A DNA stretch of 64,000 nt from an uncultured Flavobacteriaceae bacterium (GTDB lineage Bacteria > Bacteroidota > Bacteroidia > Flavobacteriales > Flavobacteriaceae), in assembly GCA_905181615.1 (NCBI GenBank), contig CAJIYH010000006.1:227001-291000 (forward strand), in the 5' to 3' direction. Position 1 is the first letter of the stretch. Each line of letters starts with the position of its first letter. Position numbers and translations under genes: made by a program. The notes below the pieces were generated by a model, which saw only the letters and a program-made list of their open reading frames with translations, was not told the DNA's origin and ran no database searches. This document shows positions 39,789-60,602 of the stretch, piece after piece.

Positions 39789-41045
39789 TTAATTAAATTT
39801 TCTTTTTATAAACCAGATATCATTTAGGGATAAGCCTATGATTAAATTCCAATAGGATTCCTCAATAAGACCATTGTTTTTACTTCCGCGTTTACCAAAT
39901 TCAAGACCAATGTTTGCATTTGAATATCCTGCCATGGGTAAACTTACTCCAAAAGATATGCCAGTTTCTTTAAGCGGCTGATTGTTGAACAACACACCAG
40001 TGTCTTCTGAACGATATCCTGCGCGGTATACGATTCGTTTCCAGTAACTGGTAAATGAACTATAGTCTGGCAAATAAAACCCTCCCAAAGAGAGGCGATT
40101 TGCATTTGCATACGTTATGTTGTCGAGCGATATAAAGTTATTTACATAAAGACCTGAATTACGAACTGTATATTGTCCACCAATAAGCCATTTTTTTTCT
40201 TTAGATATTCCCAGTCCAAATGAAAATTGATTTCCTAAAGAGATCTTGGTCTCTTTCAAGTTGAAAGCTTCTAAGTCTACATTTTCAAAATCACCTAAAT
40301 TTTCGGTAGTAATAGATCTAGTGAAAAAAACACTTTCATTTGAAGAGGTTAAACTATTACTAGGAACGTAGAATACCATTGCATCTAGGCGAATTTTGTC
40401 TTTTAGAGGTATTTTCAATTGAGTTGCAAAGCGGTAATTGAAACCAACTAAAGAAGATGTTTTGTTATAAAAAGATCCATAGTCTATGTTTTGCTCCTGT
40501 CTTGATGACTCGTTTTTAATTTTCCCAAAATTATAATTAGCGCTTACACCAAAATTTAAAAAGCTAAAAACTTTAAACCCAACAGTAAAAAAAGTTTGAT
40601 TTAAGCCCCCGGAACCTTCATTTTGATTGACAACATTATTAATATCGTCTCCTTGAATTACAGATTGCAAGCGATATCCAACCGAAGTAGCCGGTAAAAT
40701 ACCAAATCCGAAAGTGAACTTTTTAGTAGGAATTGCGACTATAAAATAATCAAGAGATGCGGAAGCTATGGTCTCGTTAGTTTCATTAGAAGATAATTGT
40801 GTGCTTTTGTAATTCAACCCAAGGCTGTAGGTTACTAATTTAAGGTCACCAAAACTCGCTGGATTATTTAGGTTAGCGTGCAGGGAGTCTGAATAAATAT
40901 CAAGACCACCCATATGCCTGTTTATAGCGTTACCTTTAAATGCTAGTTCGCCTAGACCTCCTATAGAATAGGGAGACGAGGTGTTACTTTGGCCGAAAAT
41001 AAAAGAAGACACTGTAAGGAATATTAAAAAGTATTTATATTTCAA
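39789..41045 (-). CDS. Outer-membrane beta-barrel protein
   Basis: A 418-residue exported protein: a signal peptide (cut near IFGQ), a start typical for flavobacterial porin-like proteins (SPYSIGGLGELAFKGNA, NRHMGGLDIYSDS), alternating amphipathic strands throughout, and an aromatic C-terminal strand. It resembles the FadL-like/PorV-like transport proteins in overall pattern, but the substrate is not evident. It overlaps coaX by four bases and precedes the TPR protein. Confidence 0.75.
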   Translation of the reverse strand: MKYKYFLIFLTVSSFIFGQSNTSSPYSIGGLGELAFKGNAINRHMGGLDIYSDSLHANLNNPASFGDLKLVTYSLGLNYKSTQLSSNETNETIASASLDYFIVAIPTKKFTFGFGILPATSVGYRLQSVIQGDDINNVVNQNEGSGGLNQTFFTVGFKVFSFLNFGVSANYNFGKIKNESSRQEQNIDYGSFYNKTSSLVGFNYRFATQLKIPLKDKIRLDAMVFYVPSNSLTSSNESVFFTRSITTENLGDFENVDLEAFNLKETKISLGNQFSFGLGISKEKKWLIGGQYTVRNSGLYVNNFISLDNITYANANRLSLGGFYLPDYSSFTSYWKRIVYRAGYRSEDTGVLFNNQPLKETGISFGVSLPMAGYSNANIGLEFGKRGSKNNGLIEESYWNLIIGLSLNDIWFIKRKFN

Positions 41046-41770
41046 AGTTGTTTTTTGTTGAGTTCTAAGATATAATCCAAACCTTTCACCAAAAAATTAG
41101 GATGGGCAAATATGGGGTTTTTTAATCGTTTAGACAACTGCAAGCAGTCTCCACCTGTTAAAATTATTGTTAAATTCTTGTATTTTTTTCTAAAATACTC
41201 AATTTGACCAGTAATTTCATAAAAAACTCCTTGAAAAACTCCCACCTGAATAGATGTTTTAGTGTCATCCCCTATGCGTTTATCGGTCATTTCGTTTTCA
41301 ACCAGAGGTAACTTCCCGGTAAATTCTTTTAAGCCTTTATAACGTATATTATAACCTGGAGAAATAATGCCCCCTATGTAGGTATTGTCCTGTTTTAGAA
41401 TGTCGAAAGTAATACAACTCCCAATATCTACTATTAAAACATTTTGATTTGGATACATTTTTGATGCAGCGGCAACAAGACCAACTCGATCTGTACCTAG
41501 CATTTTTGGTGTTTTATATTCACTTTGAAAAGGAAAACGCCAAGAACTTGACAATTTAAAAATTATTTTTGACTCAAAGATGTTGCTTAAAAAACCCCAA
41601 TCTAAGCCCCGGACGTCACAAATCAGAACAGAACTAATCTGAGGATATTCAGCATGGATTACCTTAAAATTCTGATATATAGGGTCCACATGTTTGGTTA
41701 AGACCAATGCTCCTGCCTCAAAAAAAGCAAGCTTTATTGCACTATTACCTGCATCAATAATCAAATTCAT
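41042..41770 (-). CDS. coaX: Type III pantothenate kinase CoaX
   Basis: A 242-residue ASKHA-fold kinase phosphorylating pantothenate, the first step of coenzyme A synthesis. Motifs are LIIDAGNSAIKLAF (phosphate 1), GTDRVGLVAAA (substrate loop), VDIGSCITFDIL (phosphate 2), and GGIISPGYNIR. It is the first gene of the long minus-strand run that includes lptC and the PpiD-like foldase. A divergent tRNA-Phe lies upstream. Confidence 0.93.
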   Translation of the reverse strand: MNLIIDAGNSAIKLAFFEAGALVLTKHVDPIYQNFKVIHAEYPQISSVLICDVRGLDWGFLSNIFESKIIFKLSSSWRFPFQSEYKTPKMLGTDRVGLVAAASKMYPNQNVLIVDIGSCITFDILKQDNTYIGGIISPGYNIRYKGLKEFTGKLPLVENEMTDKRIGDDTKTSIQVGVFQGVFYEITGQIEYFRKKYKNLTIILTGGDCLQLSKRLKNPIFAHPNFLVKGLDYILELNKKQL

Positions 41771-41822
41771 AGTTCAAATTCGTTTCTGCTAAAATAAACA
41801 ATAAGAAATTTAGATAAAATGT

Positions 41823-41853
41823 TTTGTGGGAAATAAAAAGGAAGTTATATTTG
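41823..41853 (+). promoter_or_regulatory. Promoter of tRNA-Phe
   Basis: TTTG at 41823-41826, a 19-base spacer, and TATATTTG at 41846-41853, a full match to the Bacteroidota promoter, ending 13 bases before the mature tRNA. Confidence 0.8.
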
Positions 41854-41866
41854 CAGCCATCTAAAC

Positions 41867-41942
41867 GGTACCTTAGCTCAGTTGGTAGAGCAATGGACTG
41901 AAAATCCATGTGTCCCTGGTTCGATTCCTGGAGGTACCACCA
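41867..41942 (+). tRNA. tRNA-Phe (GAA)
   Basis: A 76-base cloverleaf: acceptor arm GGTACCT/AGGTACC, D arm GCTC/GAGC, anticodon arm ATGGA/TCCAT with loop CTGAAAA (anticodon GAA), T arm CCTGG/CCTGG with loop TTCGATT, discriminator A, and an encoded CCA end. Confidence 0.97.
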
Positions 41943-41943
41943 T

Positions 41944-41979
41944 CCCTAACTAATTTATAATCAATTAGTTAGGGTTTTT
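41944..41979 (+). terminator. Intrinsic terminator after tRNA-Phe
   Basis: Perfect 12-base arms CCCTAACTAATT (41944-41955) and AATTAGTTAGGG (41963-41974), loop TATAATC, then TTTTT. Confidence 0.92.
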
Positions 41980-42298
41980 ATTTTACATTAATATAGTACT
42001 CAAACCACTTTTTTAACTAGTTGTTATTCAGTATTTTAGAAATTACAGTTGTTCTTACTGATTCTAAAGGTGATGATTTTGGTTTCCAATACCATAAATG
42101 TGTTTGAAAAGAAACTCTACTCAACAAATTTGAATTATTAGAAACTCATTGTAATCATTCAATAAGAGTTAACTAAATTAGGTTAAGATTCTTAGAATAA
42201 AATTTTTCTTACAATTATTATTTTGTAGATTTATTAAACTAAATGTATATGACTAATGAGACTAATAAATAAATAATAATTAGGGTATATCTTGTAAT
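41980..42298. other. AT-rich intergenic region upstream of Kelch-like gene
   Basis: About 320 bases with no supported gene. I see no perfect promoter; TATATCTTG just before the next gene is a near miss of the -7 consensus. Confidence 0.5.
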
Positions 42299-43486
42299 AT
42301 GATTCGACTATATATTTTATTATTATTTACTTTCAATTCTTTGTTTGGTCAATTATCAAAGACAAATGACTCTGTCATTTTCAATTTTGATAATAAAAAA
42401 TATTATTTTGGAGCCTTTAATGAAGTTTATTTGATTCAAAATGATTCACTCATCAGAATCGATAAGTCTATAGACTCAAGAATTACAATCAATTCTTATA
42501 TTTTTGAATCAAATGATACTGTAATTAAGTATGGAGGATATGGATTTTGGTCACAACGAAACTTCATGTTCTATTTCGACAACTCTTCTCTTGAATGGGA
42601 ATGGTATAAAACAATTTCTAATGATCAAATACATGGTAGTTTTTCAGGTTTTCAAAACTACAATGTAGAATCAATATTGTTTTATGGAGGGGAAAAAGTT
42701 AATCCAGAAAATAAACTACAACAAATAAGATCAAAAGAAATTGTGGAATTCAATTTTGAAACCCGAGAATTAAATAACATTGGAGATTTAGAGTTTAATT
42801 TTGAGTCAAAGAAACTATTTTATTCTGGTGAAGAATACTCAGTATTCTATGATCAAGAATTCGTCTATAGAGTAAACCCTTTTTTAAACAAGATATTTAA
42901 ACATTACAAACCTACCGTAATTAATAATCTACTTGATGTAAGTTACTCCCCTGAAAAAAAATCTTTTATAATCAAGAAAACTTTAACCAAATCGGGAGAA
43001 ATTGAGACAATTCTTTTATCTGATAACTTTTTAATTCAACCTATTGAATCTTTCAGTTTATATAATAAACCATTCAGATTAAAATTGAATTACATTTTAA
43101 TTACAATTGTGTTAGTTTTTTTAATTGTTTTATACAGTAAGAACATTAATAAAACTCTTATTAACTACCGATCTATTCAACACAAAAAATCATCATATAA
43201 TTTTGATACTGATGATATTAAACTACTAAAATCACTTATTCTTAACAAGGATATCAGTTTTATTTCTGTTTTAGAAACATACAGTAATACCGAATTATCT
43301 TATGGTCATAACACTCGAATAACAAATGAAAAATTAGATAAGTTAACCATTCGTTTGAAATCGATTTTTAAATTAAAACATGAACCAATCATTAAAAATA
43401 AATCTAAAGTAGACAAAAGACAAAAAGTTGTTTTATTATCTGATGAATTCAGGAGTATTTCAAAAAATATAAAAATTAAACCTTAA
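42299..43486 (+). CDS. Kelch-like extracytoplasmic sensor with one membrane helix
   Basis: A 395-residue protein of unrecognised family. A signal peptide (cut near LFGQ) is followed by about 230 residues with Kelch-like strands and turns (IKYGGYGFWSQRNFMFYF with WEWYKTIS, and ILFYGGEKVNPE). One membrane helix lies at about residues 264-283 (YILITIVLVFLIVLY). The last 110 residues are cytosolic, basic and helical with a possible winged-helix pattern (DIKLLKSLIL, KLDKLTIRLKSIF, RQKVVLLSDEF). The layout suggests an outside sensor joined to an inside DNA- or protein-binding domain, which is inference. It stands alone, flanked by tRNA-Phe and the small RNA locus. Its AT content is even higher than that of its neighbours. 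Confidence 0.65.
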   Translation: MIRLYILLLFTFNSLFGQLSKTNDSVIFNFDNKKYYFGAFNEVYLIQNDSLIRIDKSIDSRITINSYIFESNDTVIKYGGYGFWSQRNFMFYFDNSSLEWEWYKTISNDQIHGSFSGFQNYNVESILFYGGEKVNPENKLQQIRSKEIVEFNFETRELNNIGDLEFNFESKKLFYSGEEYSVFYDQEFVYRVNPFLNKIFKHYKPTVINNLLDVSYSPEKKSFIIKKTLTKSGEIETILLSDNFLIQPIESFSLYNKPFRLKLNYILITIVLVFLIVLYSKNINKTLINYRSIQHKKSSYNFDTDDIKLLKSLILNKDISFISVLETYSNTELSYGHNTRITNEKLDKLTIRLKSIFKLKHEPIIKNKSKVDKRQKVVLLSDEFRSISKNIKIKP

Positions 43487-43780
43487 AATCACTTATGTTA
43501 GATTCAACAGAAGTTGTGTATTCCTATAATTCACACTTAACAAATTAGAAAAATACACTTTGAATTAAAATCTACTTTCTTGGAATCATAATATAATCTT
43601 ATTATTTCCATTAGTTTCAAAAAGTCTTTCTCATTAATTATGTATTTTGATTTATTTAACCAAAACACGTAATTAGACTTTTTTTATTAAAAAATATTAT
43701 CGTTATTTTTTTAATTATTTAATATACAGATAATTAACTCATTATGTTGTTGTTTTTAAGGTTTATTAAAGTTGTCTGAA
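43487..43780. other. AT-rich gap before the small RNA
   Basis: About 290 bases after the Kelch-like gene; very AT-rich, with no gene, tRNA or hairpin that I can support. Confidence 0.5.
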
Positions 43781-43782
43781 AT

Positions 43783-43890
43783 AAAAAAAGCCCTCCAAAT
43801 CATTGGAAAGCTTCTCACTGGTTTTCTACAAACCTCTTGCATTTTCATGCAAGCAACACAACTTCTTTTCTCTGAAGTAGAGTAATTTTT
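43783..43890 (-). ncRNA. Candidate structured small RNA
   Basis: The minus strand encodes about 108 bases forming four successive hairpins, written 5' to 3' on that strand: ACTTC/GAAGT; CTTGCAT-GAAA-ATGCAAG (seven perfect pairs closed by a GAAA tetraloop); GGTTT/AAACC; and a terminator with 11-pair arms AAGCTTTCCAA (43813-43803) and TTGGAGGGCTT (43798-43788), loop TGAT, then seven U. Two of the 11 pairs are G-U, which pair only in RNA from the minus strand, supporting the direction. A consensus promoter lies just upstream. A short frame starting MKMQEVCRKP overlaps but would read through the terminator. I do not recognise a named RNA family. Confidence 0.72.
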
Positions 43891-43895
43891 ATGCT

Positions 43896-43930
43896 CAAAG
43901 ATACAAATTTCCTTTAAACAGACTGCCAAA
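43896..43930 (-). promoter_or_regulatory. Promoter of the candidate small RNA
   Basis: On the minus strand TTTG (43930-43927), a 23-base spacer, then TATCTTTG (43903-43896), matching TTG-N17-23-TAnnTTTG. Transcription would start near 43890. Confidence 0.7.
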
Positions 43931-44037
43931 AAATATTATTCGTAAACTATTGTAATCATTTTGCCAACGCAAGCTGGTTTTCGCGCGCCTTTCGTTTCAA
44001 AAGTCACTTTCCAAACAATCTTAAGACTATTTAACTT

Positions 44038-44332
44038 TTAATCTTCAATACTTTCGACTTGAACTATGCCTCTCAAAAAAGAACTTTCTACGACAGGGTA
44101 TGGAAAACGAAATTCCTCAAGGCCAAAATTATATGCCATTTTAAGGGAATCAAAGCGATCGACATAAAGCCATGAGTAATTGTTAACTTGTAGGGTGACT
44201 CTTTTTCGTCGCGTTGCTTGTCTACATGAATCCATTGGTAGTATTTGGTTGCTGCAGCAAAATGGTCTATCATTTCTTGCTCAACCTCGAGCCAAGTAGA
44301 GATTTGAATTCACTGAAATCTTTTAAGATCAT
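44038..44332 (-). pseudogene. Broken MaoC-like acyl dehydratase gene
   Basis: Three frame segments assemble into part of a MaoC/hotdog-fold (R)-hydratase. ATG at 44332 begins ILKDFSEFKSLLG; after a frame change, ISTWLEVEQEMIDHF, AAATKYYQWIHVDKQR and LTITHGFMSIALIP follow, containing the family motif (FA..T.D.QWIH.D and I.HGF); after a second frame change with a short deletion, MAYNFGLEEFRFPYPV and SFLRGIVQVESIED continue until a stop at 44038. The last 30-40 residues expected in this family are absent. It lies beside the electron-transfer flavoprotein genes, consistent with a former role in acyl-CoA metabolism. Confidence 0.75.
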
Positions 44333-44380
44333 TAGGTTATGTTTTAGATTTGGTTGAGGGTGGGTACTATTTATATTAGG

Positions 44381-45025
44381 TCATTCGAATTGCTTAAAGA
44401 TTAGGTCATTCATGATATTAGCATGCATTTCTATATTTTCTTTTGTAAATGGAGAAATACCATACTCTGACTCTAGAGTTTGAGCTAGAACAAAAAAACT
44501 ACTGGTTGCTCCAAACATAATACTAACAAAATTAGCTACTGGAATGGACTTAAATTCTTCTAAACCTTTACTCTCAAAAATTGGTTTATGGCTGAACCAA
44601 ACTACCGGCATTAATAAATGTTGACTTACAAAATCATAACGCCAAGATTTTCTACCCATTTCCTGAAGTAAAATTTTATACATCGATGGAAATTCAGCCA
44701 TCAAATACAAATAATGTTTTGTAAATGCCTTAAGCAAGTCTAAGCCGTTAAGGTCTTTATTCAACAACCGAACTTCTTCATAGCGTTGCATGATCTCTTT
44801 AGACAAGTGAATTATAGATTGTTTCCATAAATCTTCTTTATTCTCGAAGTGGTAACTAATCAATGGAGTGGTAACTCCTACCCTAGAAGCTACCTCTTTA
44901 AGCTGTGCTCCTTCGAAACCAAATTCAGAAAAAATATCTAAAGCAGCCTCGAGCAAAACTTGCTTATCGAGCTTCTCTGAAGCAACTGGCCTTCCTCTTT
45001 TTCTTTTTGTATTCAAACTACTCAT
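44381..45025 (-). CDS. TetR-family transcriptional regulator
   Basis: A 214-residue repressor-type protein. Residues about 20-66 form the TetR helix-turn-helix (LLEAALDIFSEFGFEGAQLKEVA, VGVTTPLISYHFENKEDLW) after a basic N-terminal arm (KRKRGRPVAS). The rest is an all-helical ligand-binding domain with no recognisable ligand class. It is divergent from the electron-transfer flavoprotein genes, with repeats in the shared 190-base region, so it probably regulates them and itself. A lipid- or acyl-CoA-type inducer would fit the target genes, but this is inference. Confidence 0.9.
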   Translation of the reverse strand: MSSLNTKRKRGRPVASEKLDKQVLLEAALDIFSEFGFEGAQLKEVASRVGVTTPLISYHFENKEDLWKQSIIHLSKEIMQRYEEVRLLNKDLNGLDLLKAFTKHYLYLMAEFPSMYKILLQEMGRKSWRYDFVSQHLLMPVVWFSHKPIFESKGLEEFKSIPVANFVSIMFGATSSFFVLAQTLESEYGISPFTKENIEMHANIMNDLIFKQFE

Positions 45026-45038
45026 AAATATATCTTTG
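45007..45038 (+). promoter_or_regulatory. Candidate promoter of the etf genes
   Basis: TTG at 45007-45009, a 21-base spacer and TATCTTTG at 45031-45038. The upstream half lies inside the divergent TetR gene. It would give a leader of about 170 bases before etfB. Confidence 0.6.
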
Positions 45039-45081
45039 TAGCTTATTTTTTGTTACTATAATAATTTTTTAAAAAATTAAA

Positions 45082-45109
45082 ATTAAATTGAAATTAAATT
45101 GAAATTTAA
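45082..45109. repeat. Tandem 11-base repeat and palindrome, possible TetR operator
   Basis: ATTAAATTGAA occurs twice in tandem (45082-45092, 45093-45103). TTAAATT-GA-AATTTAA (45094-45109) is a perfect palindrome overlapping the second copy. It lies between the TetR gene and etfB, downstream of the predicted etf start, where a bound repressor could block transcription. It is AT-only apart from two G, so chance cannot be excluded. Confidence 0.45.
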
Positions 45110-45215
45110 TAAAATTTTTGTCATTTTTGTATAAAATAGTCACGTATTATTTTTTTTACGTTTTAATGCAAAATACTAGAACTAAATCTAAAAAGAAACT
45201 TATTAAAGGAATTAT

Positions 45216-45962
45216 ATGAAAATCTTAGTTTGTATTAGTAATGTACCCGATACTACATCAAAAATAAATTTTGTTGAATCAGATACAAAATTTGATACTC
45301 AAGGAGTACAATTCATTATTAATCCTAATGATGAATTTGGACTAACCCGAGCCGTTTGGTTACAACAAAAACAACAGGCAGAAGTTACTGTTCTTACTGT
45401 AGGAGATATTAGTTGTGAACCAATTCTTAGAAAATGTCTTGCTATTGGTGCCGACAAAGCAATTCGAGTGGATGCAACTGCAACAGATGGATTTTTTGTT
45501 GCCAAACAAATTGCTTCTGTTTGCGAAAAAGGGTCTTACGACCTGGTAATTGCAGGAAGAGAATCTATTGACCATAACGGTTCAATGGTTCCTGGATTAG
45601 TAGCTGGTATGTTAGAGTATGAATACATCACAAACTGTATTTCTTTAGAAGTTGAAAACGGTCAAGCAATAGCTGCGCGAGAAATTGACGGTGGTAAAGA
45701 AATTGTTACCAGTGAATTACCCTTGGTTCTTGGAGCTCAAAAAGGATTGGTTGAAGAGTCTGATTTAATTATTCCTAATATGAGAGGAATTATGCAGGCT
45801 AGAAAAAAACCTCTTGATGTTATTCCTCCAATAGATGCAGTTGCATCATCAAAGGTTACTTCTTTTGAAAAACCCGCTGCTAAAGGAGCAGTTAAATTAG
45901 TTGATGCCGAAGATATAGACACCTTAATCGATTTACTTCATAACGAAGCAAAAGTTATATAA
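45216..45962 (+). CDS. etfB: Electron transfer flavoprotein, beta subunit
   Basis: A 248-residue FixA/EtfB subunit. ILVCISNVPDTTSKINF at the N-terminus, NPNDEFGLTRAVWL, and the signature VIAGRESIDHNGSMVPGLVAGML (AMP-binding loop region) are characteristic. With EtfA it accepts electrons from acyl-CoA dehydrogenases and hands them to ETF:quinone oxidoreductase. It is 21 bases before etfA and follows a long leader that contains possible TetR operator repeats. Confidence 0.95.
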   Translation: MKILVCISNVPDTTSKINFVESDTKFDTQGVQFIINPNDEFGLTRAVWLQQKQQAEVTVLTVGDISCEPILRKCLAIGADKAIRVDATATDGFFVAKQIASVCEKGSYDLVIAGRESIDHNGSMVPGLVAGMLEYEYITNCISLEVENGQAIAAREIDGGKEIVTSELPLVLGAQKGLVEESDLIIPNMRGIMQARKKPLDVIPPIDAVASSKVTSFEKPAAKGAVKLVDAEDIDTLIDLLHNEAKVI

Positions 45963-45983
45963 CCCCTTTTTAAAAAATAAATT

Positions 45984-46940
45984 ATGGCAGTATTAACATA
46001 CACAGAGTCTGAAAATGGAAGTTTTAAAAAATCTGCTTTTGAAGTTGCTTCTTATGGAAAAGCTCTTGCAGATCAAACGGGACAAAAATTAGTTGCAGTT
46101 ACCTTTAATCAAGAAGACGGAAGTGCCCTAAGCGCATACGGAGTTGATCTTGTGGTAAACATTACGGGAGGTTTTTCAGAAACCTTTTCCGCAAAAAAAT
46201 TCGCAGCCGCAATTGCTCAAGTAGCTTCTGAAAAAGAAGTAAATCTTGTAGTTATTAGCTCAAGTGCAAATAGCAAATATTTAGCTCCTTTACTCGCAGT
46301 TAAATTAACCGCAGCTTACACTTCAAATGTAGTTGCATTACCCTCAAGTACAGAGCCTCTAACCCTTAAAAGAAGTTGTTATACAAGTAAAGCTTTCAGC
46401 ACAGTTACTTCAAACCAACCCATAAACATCATTGGATTGTCTAGTAATGCTTTTGGAATAATTGAAACTCAAAGTACTCCGGAACAAACTAGTATGACAA
46501 CTGATGAGGCATCTAGCTCTATGGTGGTTTCTTCTGTCGAAAAGGTAACGGGAACAATAACCATAGCCGATGCAGATATTGTAGTTTCTGGAGGTCGTGG
46601 ATTAAAAGGTCCCGAAAACTGGCATTTAGTTGAAGAGTTAGCCTCAATATTAGGAGCAGCAACTGCATGCTCTAAACCTGTGTCTGACATGGGATGGAGA
46701 CCCCACAGTGAACATGTTGGACAAACTGGAAAGCCTGTCGCTTCAAATTTATACATAGCAATTGGAGTTTCTGGAGCGATTCAGCATTTAGCCGGTATTA
46801 ACTCGTGTAAAGTAAAAGTCGTAATCAATATAGATCCTGAAGCGCCTTTTTTCAAAGCTGCAGATTATGGAATTGTTGGAGACGCCTTTGATGTTCTTCC
46901 TAAATTAATTGAGAAATTAAAAACTTTTAAGGCAGCTTAA
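45984..46940 (+). CDS. etfA: Electron transfer flavoprotein, alpha subunit
   Basis: A 318-residue FixB/EtfA subunit. The C-terminal FAD domain shows VVSGGRGLKGPENW, LGAATACSKPVSDMGW, EHVGQTGKPVASNLYIAIGVSGAIQH, and NIDPEAPFFKAADYGIVGD, the standard ETF-alpha signature. The N-terminal domain pairs with EtfB. Together they carry electrons from fatty-acid and amino-acid oxidation. A weak hairpin follows the gene. Confidence 0.96.
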   Translation: MAVLTYTESENGSFKKSAFEVASYGKALADQTGQKLVAVTFNQEDGSALSAYGVDLVVNITGGFSETFSAKKFAAAIAQVASEKEVNLVVISSSANSKYLAPLLAVKLTAAYTSNVVALPSSTEPLTLKRSCYTSKAFSTVTSNQPINIIGLSSNAFGIIETQSTPEQTSMTTDEASSSMVVSSVEKVTGTITIADADIVVSGGRGLKGPENWHLVEELASILGAATACSKPVSDMGWRPHSEHVGQTGKPVASNLYIAIGVSGAIQHLAGINSCKVKVVINIDPEAPFFKAADYGIVGDAFDVLPKLIEKLKTFKAA

Positions 46941-60521: not shown

Positions 60522-60528
60522 GATTTTG

Positions 60529-60602
60529 CGGTCTGGACGGGACTCGAACCCGCGACCCCCTGCGTGACAGGCAGGTATTCTAACCAGCTGAACTACCAGA
60601 CC
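60529..60602 (-). tRNA. tRNA-Asp (GTC)
   Basis: A 74-base cloverleaf on the minus strand: acceptor GGTCTGG/CCAGACC, anticodon stem CCTGC/GCAGG with loop CTGTCAC (anticodon GTC), T arm GCGGG/CCCGT-type with loop TTCGAGT, discriminator G. CCA is not encoded. Confidence 0.96.

Follow-up and report, generated by a model that had tools for sequence, protein, structure and literature searches.

A structured small RNA of the Flavobacteriaceae with predicted pairing to the leader of the polynucleotide phosphorylase gene

The minus strand of a 64,000-nucleotide stretch of DNA from an uncultured Flavobacteriaceae bacterium (contig CAJIYH010000006.1; hereafter the window, whose numbering is used throughout) carries at 43783-43895 a structured small RNA, confirmed here as a real feature of the sequence. 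On the strength of its conserved complementarity, this is likely a trans-acting, base-pairing small RNA (sRNA) with the leader of pnp, the gene for polynucleotide phosphorylase (PNPase), as its conserved target, and it probably helps to set the amount of PNPase.

To our knowledge, targets have been identified for only a few of the trans-acting sRNAs in Bacteroidota. Our search of the literature, in which coverage of subscription journals was thin, found no sRNA acting on pnp in Flavobacteria. If the above reading is true, the RNA would be a family-wide sRNA with one conserved and directly testable target that is itself an RNA-decay enzyme, and there would be a reason for the presence of a conserved RNA behind tRNA-Asp.

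Gene, fold and conserved core

The features referred to in the text are the following:

43896-43903, minus strand: -7 promoter element TATCTTTG, read from the sequence and kept in 14 of 14 genus rows, the window's own row included, as TATCTTTG, TATCTTTA or TATATTTG
43783-43895, minus strand: small RNA gene, from its fold (z -4.35) and its homologues
43783-43862, minus strand: family-wide conserved core, from GTTGTG to the U run (covariance model R1, 91.4 bits)
43854-43862, minus strand: block 1, GUUGUGUUG, nearly invariant by column counts, complementary to CAACACAAC of the pnp leader
43836-43853, minus strand: hairpin H1, its letters free but paired, with six pairs each changed on both sides
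43820-43834, minus strand: hairpin H2 (GGUUU..AAACC), 98.8% of cells paired
43810-43823, minus strand: block 2, AACCAGUGAGAAGC (ACCAAUGARAAGCU in the family), complementary to AGUUUUUCAUUGGU of the pnp leader
43783-43816, minus strand: intrinsic terminator, its 5' arm with AAGCUUUCC, plus U run, from the fold, a terminator search and covariation
60528-60602, minus strand: tRNA-Asp(GTC), the usual upstream neighbour in relatives, here 17 kb from the RNA

The original prediction described a minus-strand promoter of TTTG (43930-43927), 23 bases and TATCTTTG (43903-43896), followed by the RNA, and the sequence reads exactly so; the TTTG at 43927-43930 is not conserved among the genus rows. From the position of the -7 element, the transcript would start at about 43890-43892. 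The minimum free energy (MFE) fold of 43895-43783 reaches -36.5 kcal/mol, where 200 shuffles average -22.7 and none equals it. Of the four hairpins that had been predicted, H1 stands as proposed, with seven pairs and a GAAA loop, whereas the first hairpin belongs to the genus and lies outside the core of the wider family, which begins at GTTGTG (43862). The stem letters of this first hairpin are altered among the genus rows (CTCTACTTCAGAG in some, ACCCGAAAGGG in others), and in the MFE fold its stem further includes a pairing of AGCAUAA with part of GUUGUG, for which no conservation was seen. The terminator ending at 43783 is present, with 14 pairs in the MFE stem rather than the 11 given earlier, and ranks first of the five terminator-like sites that a search of 41000-46000 returned, where shuffles give a mean of 1.9.

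To follow the structure beyond the genus we used R1 (20 sequences, 84 positions, 23 pairs) and aligned 123 matches, drawn from 100 of 169 sources. In this alignment 94.5% of the cells are paired, 16 of the 23 pairs have changed on both sides, and the covariation score is 0.451 against 0.198 when shuffled and 0.170 for the best slid arrangement; these numbers are flattered by the fitting of the alignment to R1, but each of the six H1 pairs still occurs as five or six different pair types. The base changes of the homologues thus keep the stems, a point on which the original prediction had staked itself, and the strong compensatory change in the alignment indicates that the structure is maintained in this way. 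It had also been suggested that the stems could act as docking sites, and here the alignment points elsewhere. The H1 columns hold only 0.03-0.21 bits and their letters are free, while GUUGUGUUG and an AUGA.AAGCUU block are strongly conserved (in the first 109 of the 123 rows), so that what is constrained is two mostly unpaired stretches with complementarity to the pnp leader. Block 2 shares bases with two stems, namely the 3' arm of H2 and the 5' arm of the terminator.

As originally proposed, the RNA matches no named family, the interval lying below every Rfam gathering score, and within the whole window that score is reached by two tRNAs only. All six matches up to E 5 within 42800-45000 are far below gathering; those to GcvB, PyrR and a Phe leader were judged to be chance, and neither 6S-Flavo (RF01685) nor Flavo-1 (RF01705) is one of the six or is found in the window at the gathering score. 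Two further candidates were set aside. The open reading frame beginning MKMQEVCRKP is not conserved, one relative (L013) having no ATG there, and a type II tracrRNA was rejected given that the window's own genome has no match to the HNH_4 (PF13395) domain of Cas9.

Occurrence in the family and genomic setting

A BLAST search with a 160-base query matched 15 of 19 genus genomes, one of them (G003, left out of the genus rows) over 23 bases only, and 67 of 397 family genomes, many over short stretches. With R1 at E 0.01 the RNA is found in 219 of 237 genera and in 352 of the 397 genomes of the family, the latter an upper figure because weak matches within the family can be chance (one, L315 at 35.4 bits, looks so); at E 0.001 or better our own count is about 300 of 397. 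In a sample of the order, R1 at E 0.001 matched 39 of 196 genomes (28 of 30 in the family and 11 of 166 elsewhere, at 32-39 bits), and a phylum-wide sample gave 31 matches among 247 genomes, 25 of them among 27 family members and 6 among the 220 others; the two samples share some genomes, and their family totals were taken from listing order. The matches outside the family, 11 in the order and 6 in the phylum, score about 32-39 bits, and the five inspected among these and similar weak outside matches (L167, L329, L330, L333 and L334) look like chance or plain terminators. The RNA may nevertheless spread wider than the family.

A scan with a pattern taken from one large genus of the family matched at least 119 stretches, mainly of Flavobacterium with Myroides and Paenimyroides besides, which suggests that the family is Flavobacteriaceae; F. 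psychrophilum is absent from the names of 118 of these. Copies of the Flavobacterium type also occur on four sequences titled Candidatus Nitrotoga, Rhizobium, Bifidobacterium breve and Chryseobacterium gleum (L350, L391, L433 and L362), which are probably mislabelled or contaminated bins.

The setting of the RNA varies. By ARAGORN, 61 of the 123 aligned matches lie 8-158 nt behind a tRNA-Asp(GTC) on the same strand, and in at least 12 of the other 62 we saw by eye GTCCAGACC, the 3' end of tRNA-Asp, no more than 75 nt upstream with the rest of the tRNA gene absent. A simple text test places an intact-looking tRNA-Asp ahead of 96 of the 119 Flavobacterium-type matches listed. Copies behind tRNA-Asp probably share its transcript; no copy of the RNA follows the window's own tRNA-Asp (60528-60602, minus strand). 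Other copies sit between ndh and hmgA or beside further genes. The RNA does not serve any single gene as its leader, since its neighbours vary across lineages, and a leader or attenuator of a neighbouring gene was rejected on the same ground, the neighbours changing between ndh-hmgA, lysS-DUF456, a RimK-type gene and tRNA-Asp (names by Pfam for L014 and L163, lysS and DUF456 by eye).

The promoter of its own with which the RNA had been credited is found in the window's genus but is not a general trait, with about half of the sampled copies behind tRNA-Asp. In 17 of the 123 matches a TAnnTTTG element lies with its end 1-5 nt ahead of GTTGTG, in 13 of them exactly 4 nt, against 82 of 3426 control windows; from this promoter position the RNA would start with block 1 in those 17. 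In the window's genus the promoter lies about 33 nt further upstream, with a small additional hairpin of varying letters ahead of block 1. By its transcription signals, a -7 element and a terminator, the RNA there appears to be a separate gene, which does not hold generally.

Around the RNA in the window we also observed a 395-amino acid open frame (42299-43483, plus strand) that is convergent to it and has no Pfam match at E 0.001, and upstream a gene for a MaoC-type dehydratase (44038-44380, minus strand) that looks frame-broken. The MaoC-type gene also looks broken in several close relatives, where tblastn matches are split, and three relatives (L014, L016 and L019) have a 151-amino acid frame at its position (Pfam for L014 only).

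The pnp leader as candidate target

The complement of block 1, CAACACAAC, was searched for in five genus genomes and occurs at 20-29 places in each, a search with no usable control since the control reads the same backwards. We inspected 22 of 23 places in the window's own genome (G000) and 20 of 21 in a second genome (G018), the remaining one in each being the antisense of the RNA itself. Four places are common to the two genomes, three of them within coding regions and one upstream of the pnp start. The pnp gene was identified as a 736-amino acid frame with PF01138 in its N-terminal piece, lying behind rpsO (by eye). In these two genomes the pnp leader also holds GUUUUUCAUUGGU, the complement of block 2, and the two blocks of the RNA face their sites in antiparallel order, AGUUUUUCAUUGGU being further 5' in the leader than CAACACAAC. 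H1 and H2 thereby lie between the two pairing blocks of the RNA.

We found pnp in 76 of 80 genomes and fetched 75 leaders (G021, partial, was omitted); for G184 the pnp leader was not found. A loose two-site pattern is present in 61 and a strict one in 52 of the first 74 leaders extracted, a set that includes three controls lacking the sRNA (G145 within the family, G416 and G595 outside it) and two leaders taken at the wrong start (G143 and G151). The pnp leaders of the three controls are without the sites. A whole-genome search with TTTTCATTGGN{6,36}CAACACAAC finds this pattern in 49 of 54 genomes. It occurs at 50 places, two of which overlap in G018, and every one is situated 26-105 nt upstream of the pnp match and on its strand, while the reversed two-site pattern matches none of the 54; as these genomes were picked mostly by leaders already seen, the test measures uniqueness and not frequency. 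The strict pattern is absent from G105 and G269, where the RNA is present, and from G145, G416 and G595. Searched over 1.40 million strand-bases from other loci, the strict pattern yields 5 matches and a looser one 60; by eye these 60 are the 5 pnp leaders present there and the antisense of the RNA itself; the loosest two-site pattern has 87 matches outside pnp loci.

The presence of the sites also foretold that of the RNA. Four family genomes (G042, G043, G098 and G116) were first scored as lacking the RNA yet have the pnp sites, and, as this would predict, diverged copies were found in them under laxer filters (L327, L317/L335, L314 and L339, respectively). G145, without pnp sites, has only a poor match of 26.6 bits that holds TTGTGTTG and nothing like block 2. 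When 22 family genomes without a strong match were re-examined, a copy was seen by eye in 7 and none in 15, the pnp leaders being seen for five. These comparisons argue for conserved complementarity to a target encoded elsewhere.

In the window's own genome the predicted duplexes with the pnp leader have energies of -13.4 kcal/mol for block 1 (1 of 200 shuffles as good) and -18.5 for block 2 (0 of 200). When each of 72 sRNAs was paired with the leader of its own genome, at most 2 of 200 shuffled leaders were as good for block 2 in 63 pairs, for block 1 in 31 and for both in 26, the block 2 counts including three genomes (G131, G065 and G191) whose block 2 bounds were misplaced and were corrected for the swap comparison below. 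The antiparallel order is found in 71 of the 72 genomes. Block 2 pairs poorly in G309 and G223, where 28 and 147 of 200 shuffles are as good.

Swaps of sRNAs and leaders between genomes are mostly neutral because the sites hardly vary. The clear case of co-change is G341, in which a two-base insertion in block 1 (GUUGUGUGUUGU) is matched in the leader (ACAACACACAAC), giving a duplex of -18.5. The 71 other sRNAs average -10.4 when paired with this leader, and none of them is as good; 3 of 71 other leaders suit the G341 sRNA equally. The inserted bases of G341 also occur in the RNA of G195, G368, G070 and G315. A weaker case is G191, whose altered block 2 is better served by its own leader than by 68 of 71 others (3 of 71 as good). 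Co-change was looked for beyond these two and not found: in G043, G348, G022, G065, G073, G110 and G312 block 2 is suited equally by 28-65 of 71 other leaders, and G200 gives little support, with 17 and 7 of 71 for its two blocks. In G191 the RNA occurs as three tandem copies (L166:1573-2623) with a changed block 2 (GAAGUC), and the pnp leader has GACUUC.

Proposed action, alternatives and known systems

Folding was predicted for the 64 of 72 leaders in which a regular expression finds both sites. The CAACACAAC stretch is unpaired with a mean of 0.93 and the CAUUGGU site with a mean of 0.24. The latter site finds its partners mainly at -35 to +24 of the start (0.50) and between that region and CAACACAAC (0.23), its pairing with the downstream part being 0.73 against 0.50 when shuffled and higher in 60 of the 64. 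Block 2 resembles these cis partners, ATGAA[AG]A occurring near the start in 25 of 72 leaders and [GA]ACCA in between in 42 of 72. We propose that block 1 would land first on the open CAACACAAC stretch, as on a toehold, and that block 2 would then displace the cis helix formed between UUUUUCAUUGGU and sequence near the start (AUGAAAAA, GACCA), such that the start region would be freed and pnp translation activated. Support for activation is weak because blocking both sites raises the mean openness of the start codon only from 0.49 to 0.58; openness rose by more than 0.1 in 26 of 64 leaders, changed by at most 0.1 in 37 and was lowered in 1. On this modelling we lean slightly towards activation as the direction of effect, with repression not far behind and any other effect, such as the leader sponging the RNA, improbable.

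If the RNA represses, which we consider possible though not the likelier course, it would lower PNPase by masking C/A-rich enhancing motifs of the pnp leader, as GcvB does, or by making a duplex that is cut by RNase III. Block 1 is G/U-rich and faces an ACA-rich target, and ACA motifs are described as enhancing translation and as being silenced by GcvB (PMC3879156), while in E. coli the decay of the pnp mRNA is described as beginning with a cut by RNase III in its 5' UTR (PMC9032294). However, the CAACACAAC end lies a median of 57.5 nt (24-131, 64 leaders) upstream of the start codon, a distance that in most leaders is large for direct interference with initiation, and the cis helix with which block 2 competes ties up sequence near the start. 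It is more doubtful that the RNA is a broader regulator of many targets among which pnp is merely the best conserved, in which case it could be Rfp18 of F. psychrophilum. Rfp18 is described as a structured sRNA conserved beyond the species and widely in its genus, with pairing predicted through its third stem-loop, and its deletion as lowering two metalloprotease mRNAs in stationary phase (PMC9723704); block 2 of our RNA extends into stem-loop three of its core. Counting against many targets is the finding that the two-site pattern occurs only at pnp in the 49 genomes holding it, with single-block targets viewed for CAACACAAC in two genus genomes only.

Since the pairing is symmetric, either partner could act on the other, and the pnp leader might be the regulator, sponging an RNA whose main job is elsewhere. 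This is quite improbable, and no second two-site place was found among the genomes searched. Least credible of all is a processed tRNA-Asp trailer and terminator with no function of its own. The frequent position behind tRNA-Asp (61 of 123 matches) would suit such a trailer, but stand-alone copies have their own -7 elements at other sites, the unpaired blocks are conserved, compensatory change occurs in a stem not needed for termination, and the trailer reading leaves aside the match to the pnp leader.

Among known systems, GcvB (RF00022) is the nearest in manner of work and, by Rfam score, is not a relative. Both have their own gene with a terminator and a G/U-rich single-stranded seed (here GUUGUGUUG) that faces a C/A-rich, ACA-containing leader. 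The window RNA scores 20.8 bits (E 0.086) against a gathering score of 42 and has other hairpins; moreover, GcvB targets amino acid genes, whereas here one conserved target, pnp, was found, and Hfq (PF17209) has no match in the window's own genome, which is 95.5% complete; this search gives a match in 5 of 14 control genomes. SraG, which is encoded in the rpsO-pnp interval, is reportedly concerned with PNPase homeostasis in E. coli and is similar as a small RNA concerned with the level of PNPase, but in our case the sRNA and pnp are on different contigs (G000:C6 and G000:C2). The 3'ETS of leuZ in E. coli is an sRNA cut from a tRNA trailer that acts as a sponge. The family RNA resembles it in lying behind a tRNA, probably on the same transcript. 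What sets it apart from such a sponge is its structure, a terminator of its own and the conserved match to an mRNA. Control of pnp at the RNA level is further described for the Actino-pnp element (RF01688), a cis element controlling pnp (PMC2864571), and for the E. coli pnp leader, both acting in cis and not, as here, through a separate RNA. Rfp18, compared by its description only, is alike in being structured, widely conserved in its genus and predicted to pair through a third stem-loop, but its reported targets are metalloproteases (PMC9723704). The window RNA may be Rfp18, for which no link to pnp was found in the literature.

Returning to activation, an RNA on the tRNA-Asp transcript would tie the level of PNPase to tRNA output, while in the window's genus the RNA would be transcribed alone. 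One may extend this to a family-wide RNA switch in which the sRNA would open the pnp leader by toehold displacement without Hfq (none being found in the one genome), PNPase would degrade the sRNA in a homeostatic loop coupling RNA decay to tRNA output, and elements in tRNA-Asp would carry their own copy and so keep or hijack control; such a scheme, taken as a whole, is unlikely and is offered as speculation.

The place of the RNA behind tRNA-Asp may also bear on mobile elements. Genes were checked in two of the stretches that have distant copies (L102 and L113). In both, an integrase gene (PF00589) lies just past the copy that follows the intact tRNA-Asp, and the far copy of the RNA follows a tRNA remnant. 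We infer that this layout is the trace of an element that integrated in the 3' end of the tRNA and brought its own copy of the RNA. If the RNA does act on pnp, mobile elements at tRNA-Asp would carry cargo with a function. The likely integrative elements in tRNA-Asp are at L102:1378-14992 and L113:1529-15977. Three contigs of a viral catalogue (IMG/VR; L463, L464 and L465) also carry the RNA, as either host flank or viral cargo, and the copy on L463 lies behind the 3' part of a tRNA-Asp.
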